From Guyanagaster necrorhizus (taxonomy: Eukaryota; Basidiomycota; Agaricomycetes; Agaricales; Physalacriaceae): 64,000 nt of DNA. A program made the position numbers and the translations under genes. Of the stretch, positions 1-63,414 are shown one piece after another (position 1 is the first letter of the stretch; each line of letters starts with the position of its first letter). Below the pieces are notes generated by a model that saw only the letters and a program-made list of their open reading frames with translations, did no database searches and was not told where the DNA came from. The DNA lies in the NCBI RefSeq assembly GCF_019112545.1, contig NW_025064890.1, forward strand, positions 178,283 to 242,282, given 5' to 3'.

Positions 1-741
1 CTCCACCTTTTCATTAACTATTGACAAGATGACTGGATTGAATGGCTGGCTCTTGCTGCCTTTTAGCATAACAACTAAATACACTTGGCCATAGAGAAAA
101 CACTGTTCTTCATCAATCATGGCCAACACTTTAACATGTCACACACTGAATGACACCATACTACTACACCTGCCTCTGCAGACTTTGCTACCACAATGGC
201 AAAGATTCATGCTAAAACAAAAATAGCTCTTGATAAGGCTGTGACAATAATGAAAAAACAGTATGACAAACATCACTATCCTACACACTTCTATGCAGTT
301 AATGACAAAGTTTGGCTCAACACAACACATCTATACCTTCTCCATCCAAAATGCAAACTGGCAGACAAATAGACAGGGCCATTCCCAATTATTGCCAAGA
401 TTGAAGCTTCAGCCTATAAACTCTGTCTTCCCCAAACATAGAAGATACATGATGTCTTCAATGAATCTCTTTTCACATCTTACATTGCTCCAGCCTTCTC
501 TAATTAAGAATGCCCATCACCTCCACTGCTAGACCTTATCAAAGATGAAGAACATTACAAGATCAACTAAGTATTAAACCATAAATTATGAAAAATCAAG
601 GCAAAAGGTGATGAGACAACAATGATGGTCAATTATTTAGTTAGCTGGAAAGGCTATGGCCCTGAATCCAACAAGTGGATAAATGAAAAATATATGAGTG
701 CTGACAATACCATACATGACTATAAACTATCCCTAAATTAA
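1..741 (+). pseudogene. Gypsy-B pol 3' remnant (B1): integrase C-terminus and chromodomain
   Basis: This is the 3' end of a Ty3/Gypsy pol, which would join integrase to chromatin targeting. The opening bases match the post-catalytic integrase stretch that recurs at 8025-8200 (B2) and 60255-60430 (B9). A chromodomain-like segment reading YLVSWKGYGPESNKW lies at about 633-680 and the frame stops at TAA 739-741, 33 bp before the LTR. Chromodomains at this place define chromoviruses, where they steer integration. Frameshifts and stops upstream make it non-coding today. The 5' part lies outside the window. Confidence 0.75.
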
Positions 742-7647: not shown

Positions 7648-8753
7648 CACACCACTTCACCCAAATGAAGTTCCAACAACCTTGTGGATGCACATATCTG
7701 TAGATATGATCACTGGCCTATCAGATTATAATGATTGTGATGCTATCATCATCATTATTAATCTGTTCTTAAAGGCCATTATCTTGATCACATGCTTAAA
7801 TAAACTGATTTCAGAAGGCTGGACCAAGATCCTCTGTGATAAAGTGTATGCCAAGTACAGCATACTACAGGTTATTTTAGATTGCAGTCCTCAATTTGTA
7901 TTCAAATTCCTAGATAATTTATATCAGCTTCTAAATATTTGAAGTAATGTTTTCATAATGTATCACCTTCAAACAGACAGACAAACAGAATGTGTCAATC
8001 AGAAGATTGAAAAGTACCTCCATATGTTCATCAATTATCACCAAGATGATTAAACAGAATGGCTCACTCTCACTGCTTTTTAGCATAACAACTATATACA
8101 CTCTGCAATAGAGAAAACTCTCTTCTATATCAACTATAGACACTATCCATATATTGCCTATATAGAATAGCATCACACTACAACACCTGCTTTTGCTGAT
8201 TTTGCCACTTTAATAACTAAGATCTATACTAAAACTCATACTACTCTTTAAAAAGCTGCTATCTCTATAAAGATTCAATATAATAAACACTGTCATTCAC
8301 TATATAAGTATCAACTAAATGATAAAGTTTGGCTTGATACTATGAACCTCCACCTTTCTCATCTGAAATAGAAACTTGCTGACAAATAAACAGATCTCTT
8401 TTCTATTCTAGCTAAAGTTAGTAACTCTGCATAGACTTTGCCTTCTTCCCACATAGTGCATCTATAACATATTTAATGAGTTTCTCTTATTGTCCTTTAT
8501 TAAACTCATCTTTTCAAATCAACAGCAACTACCACCATCTGACCTGATCTTTATGGATGATAAAGAACACTATAAAGTTAATTAAGTTCTCAACTATTAC
8601 TTCTGCAAAATTCACACTTGTAGTGGTGGAAGTCAAATAACAGTTGATTATTTAGTCAGTTGGAAGAGTTATAGCTCTGAATTTAACCAATGGGTAAATA
8701 AACAATACATAAATACCACCAATGCTATTCATAATTATAAACTCTTCTTGTAA
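7648..8753 (+). pseudogene. Gypsy-B pol remnant, 3' part (B2): integrase core and chromodomain
   Basis: Continues the integrase interrupted by the solo LTR. The catalytic core starts with ISVDMITGLSD (about 7692-7724, first Asp kept). The second Asp lies in a segment reading LDCSPQF, and the Glu region reads QTDRQTECVNQ (about 7973-8005). The C-terminal domain follows, then a chromodomain with YLVSWKSY at about 8660-8683, ending at TAA 8751-8753. Several stops and indels make it inactive. Confidence 0.8.
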
Positions 8754-15389: not shown

Positions 15390-16320
15390 GTATCCCTCTA
15401 TTAGTGTTCTTGCCCTTAAGAGTGCAGATCCTAATGCCTGGTGGAAGAGCACATAGTGAAAAATTTGGTGTCATGAGAGTTTTGCTTTTCAACTCCAACC
15501 ACTATCTCTCCTTCTTTCTTAATAATGCCTTTTGTTGTCTTCTATTGTCTCTTAAAAACTCCCAAGTCTCTGCTATGAGAGTTGACCTCTAATGGCCCTC
15601 AAGAGACCCAAAAATTGTTTTGTTTAAAATAGCAAACCAGAGAAGATGAGTTTGTAGAAACTATAAAGGGCTATGAATTCAGCAGAAAGAGATCAAAAGC
15701 AAAAGTTTAAGTCCAGGAACATGGTAGATGATAGTGGGATAGAGATGATGGCCAGTCCTAAAAAAAAAATGAAGTTAGAGGTTGTAGGACTGGCAGAGAG
15801 TGAGAAAGAGTTGAGCAGTAAAAGTAAGTGTCTTGTTATTTCTGGTTGGCTTGTCTTAGTTCTGCTTCCAAAGAGTTGCATATGCTGTCATCAAGATAGC
15901 ACACCCTATTATGCATGCTCAGCAACTGAAGATACTGGCTGTAAGTGGACTTGTATCTGTTACAAAATCAAAAAGACCATCTATTTGTTCAACAAGGGTG
16001 TCACTACAAGTGAGGTGATTAATAGTATAGAGATCTCCTTCAGCCTCCACCAACTTTTAAAATTAATATACAAGTTGATATATCATATAGATGAGTTAGC
16101 AGAAGAGCTGATGGATGTCTATAGTACTGTAGCAGATCCTCAGGATAATTATAAGTCAGATAATATGTCATCTCTCTCAGAGTTATTTTTAGAGTTCAAG
16201 TTGGAGATATGGAGAGAGGCTCAGCTGATCTTCAGGAATGAGAAGGACCAGAAGATAAAGAACTTGCAGGCTGCAATATTGAAAAGGCTGGATGAGGATA
16301 TAAAGGACTTGAAAAAATGA
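15390..16320 (+). pseudogene. Antisense accessory gene of A2 (Zn2Cys6-like, decayed)
   Basis: Runs opposite to A2 pol, like the gene at 40986-42374. A 215-codon frame (15673-16320) keeps the middle and C-terminal half: the basic segment SPKKKMKLE, the cysteine region reading CICC with several cysteines lost, the CYKIKKT half-site, and a C-terminal coiled coil ending LDEDIKDLKK. The intron donor GTAAGTGTCTTG at 15824 is kept, but the acceptor area reads CCAAAG. The N-terminal coiled-coil part is deleted between about 15610 and 15680. Open length is probably chance in AT-rich decay plus past constraint. Confidence 0.7.
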
Positions 16321-16379
16321 GAAGAAGGTTTAAGTTTTGGTGTGGGTTCATTGAATACTATTACTCTTAGATTGTAAAT

Positions 16380-21800: not shown

Positions 21801-22245
21801 ATAGATGCAGGTTTCTATAAATTTAAGTGAATTTTGCCTCTAATATTAGTTGCATATTCTCTCTCTCAAGCCTTAGACACTGGCTTTCATGTAGCCTTAG
21901 TATAGATATATAACTCACAGAACTGTGGTTCTCCAGATGACTTGTCAAGCTTTATCTCAGTCACAAAGCCTTTTTCAATCAGACAATGAGCAACTTTGGA
22001 TGAAATGTGGCTTATATAGCAGTGCAATTAGTTTCAAGTAAGTATTTTCTTGGCTGCCTCAGCCAAATCTCTTTTATGACAAACTCAATATAGACCACCA
22101 TCATCTAGTCTACCATCAAACATAGTCAGACTTGTGTGTACTATAAGATTAAAAAAGCAATATGCTTCTTTAATCAGAAAAGCAGTATTGGCAGAGTTAT
22201 AAGAAATGCAGAGATCATCACAACTCTCTGAAAAATCAATAACAA
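18841..22245 (-). pseudogene. Ty1/Copia pol fragment (without LTRs or gag)
   Basis: Minus-strand Copia order integrase, RT, RNase H. Integrase end: VYDMPQHNRVAERYN and AMLHLSGLPHFL (21452-21600). RT: QEFSQVSGINYFNTYA (about 20500-20550), followed downstream by LKTLYSLKQ and WYQHL (about 20320-20250). RNase H: GYTFMINSETILCSSKKQ and STTESKYMAIKYA (19150-19290). It ends with FVSLKGEC near 18845, close to the usual Copia C-terminus. The N-terminal side fades near 22245 in the pre-integrase region. No Copia LTR is visible on either side. A solo Gypsy-B LTR interrupts it at 19528-19900. Confidence 0.85.
19528..19900 (-). repeat. Solo Gypsy-B LTR in the Copia fragment, duplication TAAGA
   Basis: Plus strand runs TGTTAAACCCAAG to ATCATAATA, 373 bp, flanked by TAAGA at 19523-19527 and 19901-19905. 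It contains the reverse of the R-start motif (TTAGCTTGAAGCT at about 19687) and of a TATA box. Copia coding resumes on both sides. Confidence 0.9.
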
Positions 22246-22597
22246 CATGAAAAAGTTGAAGAGCTGAATAAATAAACTTGTAAAAGAGGTAATAAGTCAG
22301 ATGGATGAGTTAGCAGAGAAGATGACAGATATCCATGGTACTGTAGAGGGGTTACTGGATGATTATACATTGAATATAAAGTTTTCAATGCAACTCATGT
22401 CATTTGACTTAGAGACTTAGATGATAGCCCATGTAGAGTTCTAGAGTATGAGAGAGTCAGAGATAAAGAGGTTGAAAGAGATGATGGAAAAACATTTGAA
22501 TGAGAATATAGTGAAGTTGAGAGAAATAGAAAAAAAGATAGAGTTCAGTAGAAAAGAAGATGAAATGAGTTTTTTAGATGTTAATTCTTTCTCTTAA
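22246..22597 (+). pseudogene. C-terminal remnant of the antisense accessory gene (A3)
   Basis: Matches the C-terminal coiled-coil half of the A1 antisense gene: QMDELAEKMTDIHGTV-like words at about 22290-22345 and a charged helix, ending at TAA about 22595. The zinc-cluster half and the 3' LTR of A3 are missing, replaced by Copia sequence at 22245. Confidence 0.7.
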
Positions 22598-34864: not shown

Positions 34865-34869
34865 AAAGG
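34865..34869. repeat. Target-site duplication AAAGG of A1, left
   Basis: AAAGG before the 5' LTR, repeated at 42928-42932 after the 3' LTR. Confidence 0.92.
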
Positions 34870-35088
34870 TGTTACGCGCATGCCGCCGGCCTCTGTGTCA
34901 CCTCAACCAACCGCGAATCCAATCACACTACCCACCGGACTCCGACCGCTTTCCATTACCTACTAATTTCATTTCATCAGTATCATTTCACATCTGTATT
35001 TCACATTGTAATATCTAGACCCCGAACTCGGTAATGAATACCGACACCAGAACCCAATGGAACCTGACTCGGAATTAGCTACCATTAG

Positions 35089-35096
35089 TATATAAA
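35089..35096 (+). promoter_or_regulatory. TATA box of A1 5' LTR
   Basis: TATATAAA in the LTR, 33 bp before the predicted RNA start at 35122. The equivalent site is kept in the 3' LTR and in old copies. Confidence 0.7.
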
Positions 35097-35121
35097 GCCA
35101 TGTACATCATCATAGCCACTC

Positions 35122-35132
35122 AGTTCAAATAT
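35122..35132 (+). promoter_or_regulatory. Predicted R start / self-primer of Gypsy-A
   Basis: Reads AGTTCAAATAT here and AGTTCGAATAT in the 3' LTR (about 42688-42698). The 3' LTR version is the exact 11-base reverse complement of the PBS ATATTCGAACT. The 5' LTR has lost the match at one CpG. Confidence 0.65.
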
Positions 35133-35363
35133 CAACTTGGATAAGCCATCTACACTTCATACTCACTTCTCCCTATCTCATCCGTCAGATTCCGCTCCGA
35201 AGGATACTCCTGTTCACTTCTCTGACAGAACTCCGTTCTGTCCATCCAGATCCTTGGGCTCCGACTCAAGGGTGACGTTGCCAATAGCTTCGTCAATGCC
35301 CACGCACTCCGCTGGACTCCACGCGTGCACTCAAGCCCACTTGATTGGCACGTTCCTAACAGT

Positions 35364-35400: not shown

Positions 35401-36849
35401 ATGTCCACCACATTTACTGAACCCACAGAGACCGATCCTGAACAAAGGCAGCCCACCCATCCAAACATGTTTTCCATGGAAGATATTCCAGCATCTGCCT
35501 CAAAGGAACAACCAGGCCTGTTCAGATCAGCCTCCAGTGGGGGACAACCTTTCCATAGGGAAACCTACAATCACTCTAGCTTCACTACCCGCCAACCTAA
35601 TTACGACGATTCCCCTAACCCTTTCGATGCCACCAGCATCCCAACCAACAGGGCCCAATGGGCCAGCCTGATGTATAGTGCCTGAACCGACCCCCCAATA
35701 GACCCCTTATTCCTGGGCAACAACCATGGGAATCCAGACAGTCTAGACTCAGAGAGCAGAGATGAAGACACCCCTACTTATACTCCCATCCGATGGGAAC
35801 CAGCTGGCAATCCACCAAACCCTTTTCCAGGTGGACCAGGAGGACCAGGAGGACCAGGAGGATCAGGTGGTCTCAATGGCCCAGGCAGCACCGACAGCCC
35901 CACAGGAAGTAACAATCCAAACCAGCAGGACATGTTCCTAGAATTCATGAACCTGTTACAAGGAGTCTCCACCTCCCTCAACAACCCTAAACCAGCCACT
36001 GTCCATACCAAGGTCAAGGAATCAGAACCATTTGATGGCTTTGACCCTCGCAAACTAAAGGCTTTCATTGTCTCTCTTCAGTTGAACTTCAACGACAGAC
36101 CTACCGCGTTTGCAACAGATGCTAACAAGGTTAACTATACTATTTCATTCCTGGCCGGCACCACGCTCAACTGGTTTGAACCAGACATTCTTAACTCCAA
36201 TCCGCGGAATCCACCAGCCTGGCAATTCTCCTATGCAGCCTTCTTAGATGAGCTTCATAGCAACTTTGGCCCCTTTGATGCTATCAGAGATGCTGAAGAT
36301 GCATTAGAACACCTTTGGATATGCGATGGTGATCAGATCATGAAGTATATAGTCCAATTCAACCAGTACGCTTCACAAATTGGGTACGGAGATAACTCCC
36401 TCCACCATGCCTTTTACCGTGGCCTCTGCACCCATATCAAGGACGACATGGCACACCATGGGAAGCCAAACAACCTTCGTGATATGCACTTCCTTGCCCA
36501 AAAACTTGATGCTCGCTACTGGACCTGGAAGACCGAAATTGCCTGTGAAAACCAGGACAATAAATTCCCCAACCCTAAATCCAAGGGGTCTAACACTTCT
36601 TCCTCAGACTCCAGCTCCACACTGAAATCTACTGCCTCTAAGTCCTATGCCGACAAGCTAGGCAAAGATGGCCGTCTTACTCAGGAAGAAAAAGACTGCC
36701 AGCGCCAGAACAACCTTTGCATGTTCTGTAGAGCCAAACACAAGACCGAGGACTGCAACAAGTGGAAGGCAGCAGCCTCCGCCAAGGGGCATGCAGCAGA
36801 GATCGATACTGCTCCTGTGGAACCAGCTCCAACGGAGTTGGAAAACTAG
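35401..36849 (+). pseudogene. gag: A1 gag
   Basis: Gag forms the virus-like particle and packages RNA. One frame of 483 codons runs from ATG 35401 to TAG 36849, broken once by TGA at 35683-35685 (a likely former CGA). The N-terminus is polar and acidic. A short Gly-Gly-Pro repeat lies at 35829-35870. The capsid region covers about 35935-36480 (LKAFIVSLQLNFNDRP, NWFEPDIL). The zinc knuckle at 36718-36756 reads CMFCRAKHKTEDC, C-x2-C-x3-H-x4-C, one residue shorter than the usual CCHC. The downstream ATG at 35932 could start a shorter product. Pol overlaps its end in the minus-1 frame. Confidence 0.9.
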
Positions 36850-39800
36850 GAAGCAACTCTGTTCCCTCCGTGCAAGTTCAGGGTTGCGTCGACTGTATTC
36901 GCACACTGGAGGTCATCACTCTCAATGCAACATCCCTTTCCAATCACTCCTTCCACATTCCCCTCTCAGCAGAATTGCCGACTACTACAGAATCCGATGG
37001 TTCCCCAACTTGTATCATCCTATGTTTTCTTGCCCTTATTGATTCTGGCTCTAGCCACTGCTTTATTGACACTAAGTATGTAGCTGCCAATGAAATCCCC
37101 ATTAAAACCATCCCTAGTATGCAACTTCAATTATTTGATGGCTCCATTGGGAGCCGTATATCTCAAATCACAACCATCCCCATCTGTTTCCCATCCAGAG
37201 ACACCTTCCCCATTGACTTTTATGTCACTCCTCTGGATTCATCTTGCAATCTTGTCCTAGGATACAACTGGCTCTCCCGCTACAATCCACTGATTGACTG
37301 GGCTGAGAACAGTATTATTTTCTGTTCAAGCTACCAGAACTCCACTCCAACCAATTCCATGGCCTCCACCATATCCCAGGGACTTCCATGCCCACAGGAC
37401 AACAGTCTATTTTTTTTCGAGCCTTCCAGCTCAAATCCAGGACCTCCATGCCCACAGGACAACAGTCCACCCCTTTCCGAGCCTTCCAGCTCAATTTCAG
37501 GACTTTCATGCCCATCGGACTCTATCAGTCCAACTTCCGGAGCTTCACCCCATTCCAAGTCCACATCGGGTAGCTGGCGGACTTCATTCCCATATGAACC
37601 CATCTACTCCTATCCTCCCTCAGAATCTTTTACTATGAAAGCACACCCAAAGATCTCCATCATATCCACTGCTGCATTCATCCGAGCCAGTGCAGAAGAA
37701 GGCACCCAGCAGTTCACACTGCAGCCTTCTTTGCCTAATATTGGAGCCAAAGCCGCATCCATGGAACCGGCAGATCTTTCATCAGTGCCAGTAGAGTACC
37801 ACGATTTTGCAGATGTCTTCAGCAATACCCTCTCCGAAAAACTACCTGAACACAGACCGTACGACCTCAAAATCAACCTTGAGGAAGGGACATCCCCACC
37901 ACTTGGACCCATTTATTCTCTCTCAGAATCTGAACTCAAAGCTCTACGAGAGTTTATTGATGATAATCTGTGCAATGGGTTCATTACTCTGTCCCGCTCT
38001 CCACATGGGGCTCCAGTTCTATTCGTCAAGAAAAAGACCAGTGAACTCCGACTTTGTGTCGACTACCATGGCCTAAACAAAATCTCCAAGAAAGATCGCT
38101 ACCCTCTCCCTCTCATTTCTGATCTCCTCGACTCTGCCCACTCCGCACGCATCTACACCAAGCTCGACCTTCGGCATGCCTACCATCTCGTTTGCATAGC
38201 TAAGGGGGACGAATGGAAAACAGCCTTCCAGACCCGTTACAGTTCCTTCGAATGGCACATCATGCCCTTTGGCCTCACAAATGCTCCAGTGGCATTCCAA
38301 CGATTTGTGAACGATATATTCTCAGACATGCTCGACATATCAGTAGTAGTCTACCTCGATGACATCCTCATATATTCCAACAACCCGGAAGATCACCAGA
38401 AACATGTTCATGAGGTCCTATGCAGGCTTAGAGCTAATGGACTCTACTGCAAAGGTTCCAAATGCGAATTCAACTGGGACTCCGTGGAGTACCTAGACTA
38501 CATCCTATCACCTGAAGGACTTCGCATGTCTGAAGAAAAAGTCAAGGCGATTGTCGACTGGCCGGTGCCATGAAAAGTCAAGGACATCCAATCCTTCCTC
38601 GGCTTTGCCAACTTCTACCATCGCTTCATACACGGATATAGCGATATCGTCATCCCTCTTACACGACTCACCCACAAGGAAACTCCATGGAAATTTGACA
38701 ACAAATGCTTGGCTGCCTTCAATGAATTGAAACAAGCCTTTACACATGCTCCTATCCTTACTCACTGGGTTCCCGATCGAAAGATAGTGGTGGAAACTGA
38801 CGCCTCCGATTACGCCATCGCAGCTATCCTCTCTATCTACCTCAAAGATGGTGAAATTCACCCGATTGTGTTCTGCTCCCAGAGCCTCCACAATGCTGAA
38901 TTCAACTATGACACCCATGACAAGGAGCTCCTGGCCATTTTCGAAGCTTTTAAACATTGGCGGCACTACCTTGAAGGCTCCGCAGACTCCATCGATGTCG
39001 TAACAGACCACAAGAACCTTGAATACTTCGCCACCACTAAGATTCTAACCCACTGACAGGTCTGCTGGTCCGAATACCTATCCCAGTTCAACCTAGTAAT
39101 CCAGTTCTGCCCTGGAAAACTTGGTGGAAAACTGGATGCGCTCACTAGACGATGGGACATCTACCCTAAAGAGGGGGATAGCCAATATGCCCAAATCAAC
39201 CTGCACAATTTCCGACCCGTGTTCACCCAAGAACAACTCTCTGCGTCACTCCGAGCAACCTATCTCGAAGGCCCCACCCTATGGGCTAGTGCCATCATGG
39301 ATATTGACAAACTCCACACCGATATCAGACAAGCACAATCCTCTGATGCTATGTCCTCCAACAGCCTCCGCCAGACCAAGGCCGCTTCTGAATCCTCTCC
39401 CTCTCAATAGTCCATTGACGAATCCAACATCCTTTGCTTCAAAGGCCATATCTACATCCTGGACTCTGACGATCTCTGTCTTCGTATACTACAGAACAAT
39501 CATGACCACATCTTGGCAGGTCACTTTGGTCAAAACCAGACATTAGAACTAGTCCAGCGGAACTACACCTGGCCAAAGATGTATGAATATGTCTGACACT
39601 ATGTTAAGTCCTGCACAGTTTGTGGGTGCAACAAGGCACCCAGACACCGCCCCTATAGGTTACTGAAACCTCTGCCAGTTCCTGAATGGCCATGGGATTC
39701 TATTTCCATAGACTTCATTGAACAACTACTGGACTCCAATAGATTTACTGCCATCTTAGTAGTCATAGACTAAGCTAGCAAGCAAGCCATCTTTATTCCC

Positions 39801-40802
39801 ACTCATGACACCATCAACTCCGTGGAGCTCGCCCAACTTTTCCTTATCCACGTATTCTCCAAACATGGGGTACCCAGTCACATCACATCCGACCACAGCT
39901 CCGAATTCGTCTCCCAATTCACTCGTGTCTTAGCCATGGCTCTTGACATGGAACTCCACCTTACCTCTGGTTATCATCCAGAGGCCAATGGCCAAACTGA
40001 ATGAGCAAACCAAACTCTGGAATAATACATCCACATCTACTGCTCCTACCAGCAGGACAACTGGGACACCCTCTTACCCATTGCTGAATTTGCCTACAAT
40101 AATGCCCCTAATGCGTCCACCGGAATTTCCCCATTCTTTGCTAACAAGGGTTACCACCCCAACATCACCATTCACCCTGAAAGGGATATCACCTCCACCC
40201 GGGCCCGAGATTTCGTGGTCAACCTTGAGGAACTCTATCAATTACTGAAGGATGAAATTTCTGAAGCCCAGTCTTGCTACAAGACCCAAGCAGACAAGCA
40301 CCGGATTCCGGCACCTCCATTCACAGTGGGAGACAAGGTCTACCTCAGCTCCAAACATATCAAAACCACCCGCCCAACCAGAAAATTCTTGGAGAAATAC
40401 CTTGGTCCTTTCGAAATCATAGCCCAACCTGGTACCCACTCCTTTACTCTGAGTCTTCCGCTGGACCTCCGGTCCATTCACCCCATCTTCCATGTGTCAC
40501 AATTGGAACCCATAGAAGAAAACACCATTCCTAACCAAATCCAACCACCACCGCCTCCAGTCAAAGTTGACGAAGAAGAACATTTTGAAATAGCCCAAAT
40601 CCTCGACTCTAAACTGGACCGCCAGTTCTGCTGCCCACTGCTGTACAAAATCCAGTGGCTAGGATATGAAGGTACCAATGAAGAATTTGCTTGGTTACCG
40701 GCCTCTGAGTTCTCCGCCGATGAACTTATTGAAGAATTCTACCATCGATATCCAGACAAACCAGGACCCTTGTCCAAAGTTATTCAAATATCCCATTCCT
40801 AA
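36762..40802 (+). pseudogene. pol: A1 pol (protease, RT, RNase H, integrase, chromodomain)
   Basis: One continuous frame of about 1,347 codons with seven in-frame stops: 38571 (TGA), 39054 (TGA), 39408 (TAG), 39594 (TGA), 39771 (TAA), 40002 (TGA), 40023 (TAA). No frameshift. Protease DSG at 37041-37049. A 20-residue repeat linker at 37380-37515. RT from about 37860 with YLDD at 38352-38363. RNase H Asp at 38799 (VVETDASDYA), then THDKELLAIFEA and VVTDHKNLEYF. Integrase zinc finger about 39508-39630 (CTVCGCNK). Catalytic Asp at 39711, Asp at 39891 and Glu at 39999, an exact D-x35-E. Chromodomain about 40575-40770 (YKIQWLGYEGTNEEFAWLP). It overlaps gag by at least 88 nt, minus-1 relative to gag. 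Confidence 0.92.
37380..37515 (+). repeat. 60-bp tandem repeat in the pol linker
   Basis: Two full units plus a part, period 60 bp, encoding 20-residue units around CPQDNS and EPSSS between protease and RT. A4 has fewer units (about 55665-55745). Confidence 0.8.
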
Positions 40803-40985: not shown

Positions 40986-42374
40986 TTATAAAGAAGCGGA
41001 ACCCAATGGGCTTGCACCAGAACCCGAACTCTCCCTCTGCTCCTTTAACTCCTCTATATTCTCGTCCAGCCCCTTCAACATCACCTCCCAAAGATTCTTC
41101 ACCTCCTGATCCCTCTCATCCTTGAAAATCAGTCGGACCTTCTTCCAGGCCTCCACCTTGGACTCCGAAAACAGCTCCGAAGGAGACGACATATCATCGG
41201 AACTGTAGTCATCTTGAAGATCTGCCACAGTATCATGAACATCTGCCACCTTGTCCACTAACTCATCCATGCAACACATCAACTTGTGTATCAATTGTGA
41301 AAGTTGGTGGAGACCGGCGGAGACCTCCACACTGCTGATCACCTCACTTGCGGTGACCCCCTTGTTGAATGAACAGGTGGTTTTCTTGATCTTGCAGTGA
41401 GAGCAAGTCTGCCCTCGACTGGCGCCTTCGGTTACCAGGCGTGCATAACACTGGGCACCATCTTGACAACAGCGCACACAACTCCCTAAAAACAAAAAAG
41501 CTAAGTTGAGCCATGAAAGAAAACCAAGACACTTACTTTCACCATCCAACAATTTCTCGCCCCCCACCAGTCCCGCCACTTCCAACTTTGCCTGCTTTTT
41601 GGGGCTAACAACCACCTCTGTCCCACTGCCATCCACTATGCTCCTTGACCTGAACTTGTGTTTATGGTCTTTCTCCGCCGGACCTGCTGCCCTTCTCTTC
41701 CTCTCCTGCACCCTCTTCCTCCTCTCCAGAGTCCCCTCGGATTCCTCGGACTCATCATCTCCCTCAGTCCCCTTGTCCTGTTCATCATCAGATTCTGGAG
41801 GCGTAGGGTGAGTCACCTTGAAGTGAAGACCAGGGCCAGGACCAAACCATTCTGCCAACACTCAATGCAGCCGAAAATCAATGGCCTCCATGGGGGTCAT
41901 TTGCAATCCATCCTCTGCAACCATCCCCTCCAGCTCTACCTCCTCAGCCTCAGCCCTCGCCACTGACTCTGCAGCCTCCCTCTCCTCAGCTTTCCTTTGA
42001 GCTGCCTCTTTCAATGCCTCCTTAGCCCGCCTCTCCGTAGCCTGCCGAACCTCCTCCCTCTTCCTCTCCAACTCCTCCTTCTGCTCCTTTTTCCATGCCT
42101 CTCAGGCCACATGGTCCGCCTGGACCCTTTCCTCCCGCTCCCGCTCCCCTTGCCATTCCAAATGGCTCTCCACGGCCTCCGCATATTCTTCCTCTGTGGT
42201 TCGCCATTCCAGACAAAACAATTCTTTGGCCTCTTCAGGGCCATTGGGGGTGGATCCCCTCACCAAAGGCTCGGGAGTGCGTGAGCGACGATATGTGGTG
42301 AGCGATGACATAGGTGAAGATGGTGGTTTCAGAACAAGCTGAAAAAACTCCCACAGCCACCAACAATCTTCCAT
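40986..42374 (-). pseudogene. A1 antisense accessory gene: coiled-coil Zn2Cys6-like protein
   Basis: One frame of 463 codons, ATG 42374 to TAA 40986, opposite to gag-pol, with in-frame TGA at codons 91 (42102-42104) and 171 (41862-41864), both likely former CGA. The order is: N-terminal domain; Glu/Lys/Ala coiled coil (codons about 92-160); acidic stretch; basic NLS-like RRKRVQERKRR and SPKKQAK; the six-cysteine motif at 41480-41373; and a C-terminal coiled coil. The motif is C-x2-C-x6-C, 14 residues, then C-x2-C-x6-C (CSHCKIKKTTC), the spacing of fungal binuclear zinc clusters, with the basic run in the second half. A 51-nt intron (41536-41486) is predicted. Likely a nuclear DNA- or chromatin-binding partner of the element; its role is unknown. 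Confidence 0.8.
41486..41536 (-). other. Predicted 51-nt intron in the antisense gene
   Basis: Minus strand GTAAGTGTCTTG to TTTTTAG, with a branch-like CTCAACTTAG. Phase 1. Removal joins GAA-A to GG-AGT-TGT just before the first cysteine. The frame is open with or without it here, but not in A4 and A6. Confidence 0.7.
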
Positions 42375-42435: not shown

Positions 42436-42927
42436 TGTTATGTGCATGCTGCCGGCCTCCATGTCACCTCAACCAACCGTGAATCCAATCACACTACCCA
42501 CCGGACTCTGACCGCTTCCCATTACCTACTAATTTCATTTCATCAGTATCATTTCACATCTGTATTTTACATTGTAATATCTAGACCCCGAACTTGGTAA
42601 CGAATACCGACACCAGAACCCAATGGAACCTGACTCGGAATTAGCTACTATTAGTATATAAAGCCATGTACATCATCGTAGCCACTCAGTTCGAATATCA
42701 ACTTGGATAAGCCATCTACACTTCGTACTCACTTCTCCCTATCTCATCCATCAGATTCCACTCCAAAGGATACTCCTGTTCACTTCTCTGACAGAACTCC
42801 ATTCTGTCTATCCAGATCCTTGGGCTCCAACTCAAGGGTGACATTGCCAATAGCTTTGTCAATGCCCACACACTCCGCCGGACTCCGCGCATGCACTCAA
42901 GCCCACTCGATTGGCACATTCCTAACA
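42436..42927 (+). repeat. A1 3' LTR
   Basis: 492 bp, TGTTATGTGCATGC to CCTAACA. It would also have to supply the promoter of the antisense gene, whose ATG lies 62 bp inside it. Confidence 0.95.
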
Positions 42928-42932
42928 AAAGG

Positions 42933-45243: not shown

Positions 45244-45690
45244 ATAGTCTCTATAGAGATTATTTATAACTCACTCTCTATTACCAACTCTTCTGGCAGT
45301 GCACTCTTCATTGCTGCCTCTCTTGCTGCAGCTTTTATAGTCTCCTTCTCCAAACCCTGCCATTAAGCTATCTCCTCTACAGCCTCTCTTTCTGTGGCTT
45401 TCTTTTGAGCCTCCTCCTTTGTAAGCTTCTTCACTGCCCACCAAACCTTCTTCCTCTTCCTTTTCAATTCTTTCTTTTGCTCCCTTTTCCATACCTCCTA
45501 GACCATATAGTCTATCTGAATCTTTTTCTCTCTCTTCTGCTCTCTCTTCTATTTCAAATGACTGTCTATAGCCTTTGCATACTTATCTTCTGCAGTTTGA
45601 CATTCTAAATAAAACAATTCCTTGGTCTCTTGAAGGCTATTGGAGGTGGACTCTCATATCAAAGAATCAAGAGTTTTTGAATAGTGATAT
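45244..45690 (-). pseudogene. Antisense accessory gene N-terminal remnant (A5)
   Basis: Glu/Lys-rich minus-strand frame fragments matching the first coiled coil of the A1 gene (41900-42200). The element is oriented plus. The part beyond 45244 is lost at the B6 LTR, and the LTR-proximal part is deleted. Confidence 0.65.
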
Positions 45691-46139
45691 GCTAATCATA
45701 AGACTCACTGGAATCTGCCACTTTTCAGTACCTACTAATTTTATTTTATTATTATCATTTCATATTTGTATTTCACATTCTAGTATCTAGACTCTGAACA
45801 TAGTAGTGAATAGCTGATACTAGAATCCAATAGACTCTAACTCAGACTTAACTACCAATAGTATATAAACTATATACAAGCATTATAATTACTCAGTTCA
45901 AATATCAACTTGAATAGCCATCTACACTTCATACTCACATCAGCTCCTCTCTATTTTGTCTGCTGGATTCTGCTTTGAAGGATATTCCTCTTCACTTCTC
46001 TGACAGAACTTCATTCTATCCATTCAAATCTTTGGGCTCCAACTCAAGGGTGACATTGCTAATAGCTTTGTTGATATCCACACACTCTGTCAGTCTCTAT
46101 ATATGCACTCAAGCCTAATTAATTGACACATTCCTAACA
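45691..46139 (+). repeat. Partial Gypsy-A LTR of A5
   Basis: Lacks about 45 bp of the LTR start, keeps TATATAAA and AGTTCAAATAT, and ends CCTAACA at 46139. CpG-poor. Confidence 0.8.
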
Positions 46140-52892: not shown

Positions 52893-54061
52893 TGGAGCCA
52901 CATAGAAGATTGTTGGTAGCTGTAGAAGTTTTGCAGCTTGATCTGAAACCACCATCATCACCTATATTATTGCTCACACACTTCTGAGCCTCTGGTGAGG
53001 GAGTCCACCCTCAATGGCTCTAAAGAGGCCAAGAAATTTTTTCATCTGAAATAGCAAGCTGCAGAGAAAGAATACGCAGAGGCTGTGGAGAGCTGAGGCC
53101 TTGAAGATAGAGCTGGAGAGGATGGTTATGGAGGATGGGTTGCAAATGGCCTCCACAGAGGCTATTGATTTTCAGCTGCATCAAGTGTTGGTGGAATGAT
53201 TTGGTTTTGGCTCTAGTCTTTGCTTCAAGAAAGTGGCTCATCATATGCTTTTGGAGTCTGATAATGAGCAGGACAAGGGAACTAAGAGAGACAATGAGTC
53301 TGAAGAATCTGAGGGGATCCTGGAGAGGAGGAAGAGGATGCAGAAGAGGAAGAGAAGGGCAGTGGGTCTAGTGGAGAAGAGCCATAAACACAAGTTCAAG
53401 TTGAGGAGTATAGTGGATGGCAGTGGGACAGAGGTAGTCATTAGCCTCAAAAAGTGAGCAAAGTTGGAAGTGGCAGGACCAGCAGAGGGTGAAGAATTGT
53501 TGGATGGTGAAAGTAAGTGTCTTGGTTTTCTTTCATAGCTTAACTTAGCTTTTGTTTTCAGGAAGTTGTGTGCACTGTTGTCAAGATAGTGCATGGTGTT
53601 ATGCACAACTGGTAACTGAAGGTGCTGGTCAAGGGTGGACTTGCTCTCACTGCAAGATCAAGAAAACCACCTGTTCATTCAATAAGAGCATTACTGTGAG
53701 TGAGATGATCAGCAGTGTGGAGGTCTCTGTCAGTCTCCATCAACTTTCAAAATGAATATGCAAGTTGATGCATCATATGAATGAGTTGGCAGATGAGATG
53801 GCAGATTTTTATGATACTGTGGCAGATCTTCAAGATGACTATAGTTCTGATGATATGTTGTCTCCTTTGAAGCTGCTTTTAGAGTCTAAGATGGAGGCCT
53901 GAAAGAAGGCCCAACTGATTTTGAAGGATGAGAGAGATCAGAAGATAGAGGATCTTCAGGAGGTGATGTTAAAGGGGCTGGACAAGAATATAGAGGAGTT
54001 GAAGGAGCAGAGGGAGAGTTCAGGTTTTAGTGTGAGCCTATCAGGTTCTGCTTCTTTGTGA
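52893..54061 (+). pseudogene. Antisense accessory gene of A4
   Basis: Opposite to A4 pol. The start ATG now reads ATA (about 52893). The first coiled coil is deleted near 53091. Basic and acidic segments follow (53233-53457, TGA at 53455). All six cysteines are kept: CVHCCQDSAWC and CSHCKIKKTTC, with the same 14-residue spacing. A 49-nt intron (53513-53561) must be removed to join the upstream frame to the cysteine frame. The C-terminal coiled coil ends at TGA 54059-54061. Several stops; inactive. Confidence 0.75.
53513..53561 (+). other. Predicted 49-nt intron (A4 antisense gene)
   Basis: GTAAGTGTCTTG to TTTTCAG, branch-like CTTAACTTAG. The length is not a multiple of three, and its removal restores the frame. 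Confidence 0.72.
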
Positions 54062-59838: not shown

Positions 59839-61000
59839 CTTGCCAACAAGGCAAATCTTTGACCCAGCCATGCACAGTGTCTCTCTATCTGAATGAGGTT
59901 TCATCATCACTATAGACCTATATCTCAGTGTATATGATCACTGGATTACTAGACTGCAATTGCTATGACACAATTCTTGTCATAGTCAATTGTTTCTCCA
60001 AAGTGATGACTCCAATCATATGCTCTACCAAGTTAATCTCAAAAAGGTGGGCAAAAATCTTATGTGATGAGATGTATGCTAAGTACAAAATGCCTCAAGT
60101 CATTATCTCAGACAGAGGACCACAATTTGTATCCAAATTTTTGGATGATTTGTACCACCTCCTCAACATCAAATGGAACATGTCAACTGCATATCATCTG
60201 CAAATGGATAAACAAACAGAACAGGCAAACCAGAAGATAGAGAAATATCTCTGTCACTTCATTAATTATTGACATGATGACTGGGTGAAGTGATTGGCAC
60301 TTGCTGCCTTCCAACACAACAACTGAATCTATTCCAGCACCAGGAAAACCTCTTTTTTCATCAACTTTAGGCAATATTCTCATGTTGCCCAAACTGAACA
60401 TCACCACACAAGTACATCTGCTTCCTTCAACTTCACTATAACAATGATGAAAATTCATGCTGAAACTAAGACAGCTCTTGAAAAGACTGTGTCCATGATA
60501 AAGAAGCAGTACAACAAGTATCGATATACAGCATATGAATATTCAGTCAATGACAAAGTATGGCTGGATATAACAAATCTTCATCTTCCATATCTGGAAC
60601 AAAAGCTTGCTGACAAACAAACAGAACTCTTTCTGATCCTCACAAATATCAGCAGCTTCATATACAAATTATGGCTCCCAACTACATGAAAGATTCATAA
60701 TGTCTTTAATGAAGCATTATTAACACCTTATATTGCACCAGCATTTCTAAATCAAGAATGCCTGCCACCACCTCCATCAGACTTAATCAACAACAAGGAA
60801 TATTATGAAGTCAACCAAGTCCTGGACCATAAACTACAGAAAATCAAAGCAAAAGGTGGTGAAATAATGACCACAGTTGACTACCTAGTCAGCTGGAAGG
60901 AATATAGATCTGAATCCAACCAATGAGTCAACAAACAATATATGAATGCCAACAATATGATACATGACTATGAACAGATATTGAATTGATATTTTATTGA
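59839..61000 (+). pseudogene. B9 integrase and chromodomain
   Basis: Begins at the integrase zinc finger (CEACQQGKS). A good frame at 59928-60272 holds MITGLLDCNCYD, SDRGPQFVSKFLDDLYHLL (second Asp kept) and DKQTEQANQK (Glu kept). The first catalytic Asp position reads Tyr (ISVYMITG). The C-terminal domain has NDKVWLDITNLHLP (about 60552-60593). The chromodomain near 60870 reads YLVSWKEY. Confidence 0.82.
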
Positions 61001-62129: not shown

Positions 62130-63414
62130 GCCACATAGAAGATTGTTGGTGGCCATAAGAATTTTTTGCAACTTAGTCAGATACCACCACCATCACCCTA
62201 ACTATGTTGCCTCTCACTGTGTATTATTGCTCATATACTCCTGAGCCTTTGGTGAGGGAACTCACCCCTGATGGCCTTAAAGAGACCAAGAAATTATTTC
62301 ATCTGAAATAGCAGACCATAGAGAAAGAGTATGCAGAGGCTGTAGAAGTCCACTTGGAGTGAAAAAGGGAGCAGGAGAGAGAAGAGAAGATCTGAGCAGA
62401 CCATGTGGTCTAGAAGATGTGGAGAAAGAAGCAGCAAGAGAGATTGGAGAAGAAGAGAGAGGAGGTCTGGCAGGCAGTGAAGAGACAGGCAAAGAAGGTG
62501 GAGGAGGCATTGAGAGAGGCAGCTCAAAGGGAGACTAAGGAGAGGAAGGCCACAGAGGCTGCAGTGAGAGCTTCAGCCTCAGAGATAAGGCAGGAGAGGA
62601 TGATTATAGAGGATGGATTACAAATGACCTCCATAGAGGCTATTGATTTTTGTCTGCATCAAGTGCTGGTAAAACAGTTTGGTTCTAGCTCTGGTCTTCA
62701 CTTCAAGAGAGTGACTGATCATATGCCTCCAGAGTCTATAAATACAAATTCAGGTTGAGGAGTGTAGTGGATGACAGTGGGACAGAGGTGGTTGCTAGTC
62801 CCAAAAAGCAGGTGAAGTTGAAAGTTGCAGGGCCAGCAGAGGGCAAAGAGTTGTTAAATGATGAAAGTAAGTGTCTTGGTTTTCTTGCATGGTTTGACTT
62901 AGCTTTTGCTTTTAGAAAGTTGTATACACTGTCATTGAGATGGCATATAGTGTTACACATGACCAGTAATTAAAGGCACCAGTTGAGGTTGGACTTATGC
63001 TTACTGCAAGATTAAGAAAACCACTTGTTCATTCAACAAGAGTGTCACTGCAAGTGAGGTGATCAGCAGTGTAGAGGTCTCTGCTGGCCTCCACCAAGTC
63101 TCAAGATTAATTCACAAGTTGATGCATCATGTAGACAAGTTAGCAAAAGAGCTGGCAAATATCTGTGGTACCATAATGGATCTCTAGAATGATTATGAGT
63201 TGGATGATATGTCATCTTTCTCAGAGTTGTTTTCAGAGTCTGAGTTGGAGGCCTGAAAGAAGGCTCATCTGCTTTTCAAGGATAGAAGGATCAGGAGGTA
63301 GAAGATCTGTGGGAGGTGATATTGAAAGGGCTGGATGAGAATATAGAGGAGTTGAAGAGGCAGGAGGAGAGTTTAAGTTCTAGTGTGGGCCTGTCAGATT
63401 CTGCTTCCTTGTAA
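62130..63414 (+). pseudogene. Antisense accessory gene of A6
   Basis: Best copy of the first coiled coil outside A1: 62417-62758 reads through Glu/Lys/Ala heptads to GLQMTSIEAIDF. The acidic/basic segment is deleted at about 62735. The intron 62867-62915 is 49 nt and again needed for frame. The cysteine region after splicing keeps C-x2-C-x6-C in the first half and has one Cys-to-Tyr change in the second (YAYCKIKKTTC). The C-terminal coiled coil ends at TAA 63412-63414. Confidence 0.72.
62867..62915 (+). other. Predicted 49-nt intron (A6 antisense gene)
   Basis: GTAAGTGTCTTG to GCTTTTAG, branch-like TTTGACTTAG; same place and phase as in A4. Confidence 0.7.

Follow-up and report, generated by a model that had tools for sequence, protein, structure and literature searches.

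A constrained antisense gene with a predicted intron and a six-cysteine cluster in chromodomain Ty3/Gypsy elements of Guyanagaster necrorhizus

Additional genes encoded antisense to gag-pol have been described in long terminal repeat (LTR) elements of both plants and fungi. The closest system is brtn, the additional gene of the Boty-like chromodomain Ty3/Gypsy elements of Botrytis cinerea, also present in Sclerotinia, which, according to the articles citing it, is encoded opposite to gag-pol in the interval from pol to the 3' LTR (Zhao et al. 2011, as cited in PMC7264820, PMC8365987 and PMC4227169). A Monilinia transcript similar to a truncated Pol and to BRTN is reported in a further study (PMC5987419), and the Retand elements of the plant Tat lineage are reported to carry antisense open reading frames with a TRP28 domain (PF04195; PMC11963269). 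The function of these genes, in plants as in Botrytis, is treated as an open question (PMC7264820; PMC11963269). Because brtn has been published, antisense genes of this kind are already known in fungi, and, read in general terms, the remark in the original prediction on the lack of a described fungal case does not hold. The gene analysed here resembles brtn, as described, in belonging to a fungal chromodomain Gypsy element and in occupying this antisense position; brtn differs in its ascomycete host, the comparison being one of position and published description rather than of BRTN sequence. Retand elements stand further away, as a non-chromovirus plant lineage with a TRP28 domain, and PF04195 is not among the Pfam families listed for the antisense protein (25 of 34 families in one scan). 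In the open-access literature on fungal and basidiomycete antisense genes and on brtn, we came across no antisense gene of such elements described as spliced or as carrying a cysteine cluster, and the word 'antisense' is absent from an article on LTR elements in fungi (PMC3248453).

The window, i.e., the whole stretch of 64,000 nucleotides of G. necrorhizus DNA that was analysed, contains the complete insertion A1, the sense features of which all lie on the plus strand. Its 5' LTR (34870-35361) is preceded by the target-site duplicate AAAGG at 34865-34869 and its 3' LTR (42436-42927) is followed by AAAGG at 42928-42932, and between them the order is gag, protease, reverse transcriptase, RNase H, integrase and chromodomain. 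A stop-free piece of gag (35686-36846) matches Pfam Ty3_capsid (5.6e-9) and Retrotrans_gag (4.9e-8), protease and reverse transcriptase occupy 36732-38570 (RVP_2, 1.5e-7; RVT_1, 1e-32), and RNase H lies at 38574-39053 (RT_RNaseH_2, 1.1e-32). An integrase core piece, an SH3-like domain and the chromodomain follow at 39774-40799, where SH3_Tf2-1 is over its cut-off (8.9e-16) and both rve (4.4e-4; 20.9 of 32.6 bits) and Chromo (8.9e-4; 19.6 of 25.1 bits) stay below theirs. With a clear domain order and a clear SH3_Tf2-1 match, A1 is a Ty3/Gypsy chromodomain element (chromovirus). Its two LTRs are 94.1% identical, with 29 of 492 columns differing; 23 of these 29 differences are in CpG context, a bias that points to methylation-driven decay, and the element copies appear to have been methylated.

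On the minus strand of A1, after the stop of pol and before the 3' LTR (which lies upstream of the gene), a gene extends from 42311 to 40986 and consists of two exons and a GT-AG intron of 51 nt. Exon 1 (41537-42311) encodes a charged, coiled-coil-like part with basic runs, its frame being kept apart from two in-frame stops in A1. The intron (41486-41536; GTAAGT...TTTTTAG, phase 1) has splice signals across copies, and exon 2 (40986-41485) is an open frame with a six-cysteine cluster and two predicted helices that closes with the TAA stop at 40988-40986. The original prediction had placed the gene at 40986-42374; its end stands, its start is probably to be moved to 42311, and the intron had been overlooked. 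The ATG at 42374 is disfavoured because, in some of the copies, the length differs by one base and cuts it off from the frame. The start ATG was found in 30 of 37 copies, and the likely one in A1 lies some 125 bases away from the 3' LTR. Directly downstream of the start codon (about 42305-42275 in A1 terms), a 17-nt deletion, apparently between direct repeats of 8-9 bases, shifts the frame in 11 of the 37 copies, which belong to more than one subfamily. The spliced frame is open in 6 of the 37 and exon 2 in 19, so that, taken together with this deletion, most copies have decayed. A 2190-residue 'open frame' at C12 in the search of the own genome proved to be a run of N and was discarded.

Six Gypsy-A copies in the window had been credited with the same antisense gene; this is confirmed for A1 to A4 and A6, and A5 retains a remnant of exon 1 only (45375-45691, minus strand; blastn 69% over 279 bases). 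Copies of exon 2 are present on the plus strand in A2 (15874-16368; 50% identity, HMM 2.3e-67), A4 (53561-54058; 73% identity) and A6 (62918-63411; 63% identity, in two tblastn pieces whose frames differ), antisense to the integrase-chromodomain regions at 17326-16568, 55017-54244 and 63998-63603, respectively. The truncated plus-strand copy in A3 (22127-22594; 33% identity), antisense to the integrase-chromodomain at 23556-22801, belongs to a second, diverged family. At three other Gypsy integrase regions of the window (1-723, 8015-8594 and 60246-60842), no homologue of the gene was detected by HMM at E<=0.1; these regions are 23-29% identical to A1.

In the own genome (53.3 Mb, 109 contigs), exon 2 matches at least 150 places, the best 150 of 286 candidates having been scored; a host homologue or progenitor was not found among these 150, a set from which remote ones could escape. 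In the inspected loci of the first family the antisense gene is followed downstream by the integrase-chromodomain, encoded on the other strand. This neighbourhood, which the original prediction had anticipated for homologues, was seen in 36 of 39 loci (34 of 37, plus both L048 and L049), and in the three exceptions, L016, L029 and L043, the sequence passes into N, with a match to the pol-gene spacer still present in L016 and L029 (L045 and L047 were left out of the counts as repeats of places already counted). When the last 50 residues of A3 were used as query, 10 places were obtained, A3 included (16 of 16 candidates scored), and all 10 are antisense beside an integrase-chromodomain. Outside the genome, the reading frame of the reference copy, intron included, had no match in the protein database at E<=0.001 (7997 best candidates scored), its exon-2 part had none at E<=1 (653 candidates), and the antisense protein matched no PDB sequence at E<=0.001. 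As a control, the integrase-chromodomain of the same element matches 2211 database proteins, the best at 80% identity from Armillaria ostoyae; such fungi are therefore present in the database, and the absence of the gene may still reflect missing annotation. Together with 37 DUF6534 matches in the genome, this identity places the host, from sequence, probably among the Agaricomycetes close to Armillaria.

The second family differs from A1 more in the gene than in its neighbour, exon 2 being 29-37% identical and the integrase-chromodomain 52-74% (six loci measured). The antisense placement common to both families indicates that the gene predates their split, and the lower identity of exon 2 indicates a faster evolution of the gene than of pol. 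Among first-family copies, gene and pol distances are correlated (r=0.953; 28 copies, after 9 of the 37 had been dropped for gaps, N or rearranged pol), and none of 999 permutations reached as high a value; the gene distances average 0.132 and the pol distances 0.097. The gene is co-inherited with pol.

Splicing of the intron is predicted from its behaviour across copies. GT is present in all 37 copies and AG in 36, and the seven intron lengths (48, 49, 51, 52, 53, 54 and 56 nt) are such that 22 of the 37 copies would shift frame if the intron were retained. The intron has accumulated more transversions per site than exon 2 (0.216 against 0.095). In three copies of the second family this position is occupied by a 47-nt-like stretch that contains an in-frame stop and, before its 3' end, CTAAT or CTGAT, which we take to be the branch site; the donor is kept in L054 and the acceptor in L056, both sites being intact in none of the three inspected. 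In the sense genomic RNA the intron is present as its complement alone and would therefore not be lost in retrotransposition, so that an intron-bearing gene can persist in this orientation.

Because the copies decay largely at CpG, constraint on the reading frame was tested in two ways, with CpG columns masked and with transversions only; deamination cannot produce transversions. The sample comprised 37 sequences (30 loci from the own-genome search with exon 2, A4, L039-L042, L044 and L046). With transversions only, the observed/expected ratio of nonsynonymous (N) to synonymous (S) changes in the gene is 0.44 (53 S, 116 N; P 2e-6), and 0.36 and 0.31 as rare variants are dropped; the other five frames give 0.94-2.5 and the pol control 0.71, 0.51 and 0.12. 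Pairwise transversion ratios for the reference copy are 0.28-0.30 with L040, L041, L042 and L046 (P 1.6e-5 to 1.6e-3), 0.39 with L039 and 0.43 with L044, and 0.56 with A4 and 0.48 with L019, neither of the last two being significant. By part, the C-terminal helices reach 0.29 (12 S, 20 N) and exon 1 0.45; the cysteine cluster alone has no significant synonymous excess in the first family (2 S, 11 N, ratio 1.11), 13 transversions being too few. With CpG columns masked and transitions kept, the ratios for the coding sequence are 0.82, 0.76 and 0.57 when the minor allele is required to occur at least 1, 2 and 4 times, respectively, weaker than with transversions only. The corresponding values are 1.08, 0.99 and 0.74 for the first half of exon 1 and 0.75, 0.70 and 0.51 for the pol control; two shifted frames give 1.03-1.61, and the opposite-strand frame that shares third positions goes down to 0.70. 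A single indel, of 12 nt and in frame, is found in exon 2 among the 37 copies; of the 18 distinct indels in exon 1 past the start, 9 have a length divisible by three, as do 7 of the 37 in the spacer. The antisense gene is protein-coding and has evolved under purifying selection, the protein constraint on which the original prediction depended persisting after removal of CpG sites or of all transitions.

In open spliced copies the protein has about 428 residues, and its N-terminal part is charged and rich in E, K and R. Exon 1 of A1 contains the NLS-like basic runs RKRVQERKRR and PKKQAKLE, the latter reading PKKRAKLE in several copies, and a nuclear location of the protein is predicted. AlphaFold, run on 20 exon-2 rows, places helices at exon-2 residues 46-95 and 108-154 with a mean pLDDT of 56.4, residues 1-52, which include the cluster region, being under 50. 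The basic runs and coiled-coil parts noticed originally agree with these exon-1 runs and exon-2 helices. In the A3-type loci L052-L057 the helix after the cysteine cluster is 11 residues longer than in the first family.

The cysteine pattern first described for A1, C-x2-C-x6-C-x14-C-x2-C-x6-C, is found exactly in its exon 2. All six cysteines are present in 34 of the 37 first-family copies, every loss being Cys to Tyr, and within that family the conservation of their codons does not clearly exceed that of other residues (ranks 27 to 76 of 165). In the second family, where 66 of 157 positions agree overall, five of the six are the majority residue and the sixth is split 2:2, and in three copies the middle loop is shortened from x14 to x11. 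Since the two halves are constant across the families and the loop is variable, a zinc cluster is favoured, and the protein probably binds zinc. Fungal Zn2Cys6 transcription factors (PF00172, Zn_clus) have the spacing C-x2-C-x6-C-x(5-16)-C-x2-C-x6-8-C, into which both loop lengths fit, and they share with the antisense protein two C-x2-C-x6-C halves separated by a variable loop. They differ in carrying basic residues in the first half; here the first loop is RQDGAQ-like and the basic residues (KIKK, in a second loop reading KIKKTA) are in the second half. No match to PF00172 was obtained for the scanned proteins (in one scan, among 25 of 34 families listed), hhalign against eight host Zn2Cys6 domains returned a probability of 4.6% (E 0.0088), and none of the 39 PF00172 places in the own genome coincides, by eye, with the best 150 gene places; the low confidence with which the cluster region is modelled also speaks against a zinc cluster. 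The label 'Zn2Cys6-like' can thus be kept for the cysteine spacing and fails for the Pfam match and the position of the basic residues.

A functional model for such a gene is HBZ of HTLV-1 (see PMC3185765). HBZ is a nuclear coiled-coil bZIP regulator of LTR transcription made from an antisense transcript that originates in the 3' LTR. As a retroviral bZIP protein it serves as a model of function only, with no sequence relation claimed. Somewhat short of even confidence, we propose that this constrained and predicted spliced antisense gene encodes a nuclear, probably zinc-binding coiled-coil protein that regulates its own LTR. The antisense transcript would start in or near the 3' LTR, given the short distance of about 125 bases that separates the likely ATG from this LTR; no clear antisense TATA was seen by eye in the LTR alignment. 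The antisense mRNA would be spliced and translated into the coiled-coil protein; once imported into the nucleus, this protein would form dimers and target LTR DNA or chromatin, where it may raise or tune sense transcription or counter silencing, much as HBZ acts on the HTLV LTR. Two candidate LTR sites, scored with no shuffle control, were rejected as support for binding: CGG half-sites, whose arrangements occur in at most 13 (inverted), 14 (everted) and 15 (direct) of 37 LTRs, and CGGTA-N5-TACCG, which is missing from a whole subfamily. A more far-reaching version, which we regard as doubtful, would have an intron-bearing, transcription factor-like host gene captured in reverse and kept through the split of the two families, its spliced product being an LTR regulator, HBZ-like and evolved independently of retroviruses, whose permuted six-cysteine cluster would bind DNA as a module of a new type; the 'captured regulator' of the original prediction may describe such an origin.

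The strongest competitor, unlikely in our view and still to be taken seriously, accepts the protein as real and has it act after transcription, on nucleic acid, particles, nuclear import or integration-site choice, as a partner of the chromodomain integrase, and not on LTR transcription. Coiled-coil helices with basic runs would fit a structural or chaperone role equally well, the LTRs lack a conserved arrangement of CGG repeats, and the co-inheritance with pol is in keeping with such a role; however, antisense placement uncouples expression from that of gag-pol, which would suit a regulator better. We consider it distinctly improbable that the antisense RNA is the functional product, through copy-number control or small-RNA production, and that the protein matters little. 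Antisense transcripts of LTR elements are discussed as possible silencing triggers in one article (PMC7264820), and the reading frames are broken in 31 of the 37 copies, but the constraint tracks the codon frame, is accompanied by the gene's presence in both families and leaves exon 2 with its lone in-frame indel, all of which is compatible with an additional RNA role. A little less probable again is a protein dedicated to countering host silencing on methylated or heterochromatic copies: the heavy CpG decay of the A1 LTRs, from which methylation is deduced, would suit it, yet Pfam scans (in one, 25 of 34 families listed) reveal no chromatin enzyme or reader domain in the protein. That the gene is a chance open frame opposite non-coding spacer, as its low-complexity, purine-rich exon 1 and the low ratio of spacer frame 0 on few changes (0.47; 7 S, 21 N; P 0.078; transversions) might suggest, is very improbable given the transversion test, repeated between subfamilies, the conserved intron and the second family.

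A regulator of its own LTR, as tentatively preferred here, would bear on a class of genes whose role in plants and in Botrytis is left open by the sources cited at the outset. With its many genomic copies, two element families, measured constraint and intron signals, the function of the G. necrorhizus gene becomes testable: there is a defined protein, a candidate target in the LTR, and an intron that would report antisense transcription directly. The gene also illustrates why a captured, intron-bearing gene may survive in such elements only in the antisense orientation.
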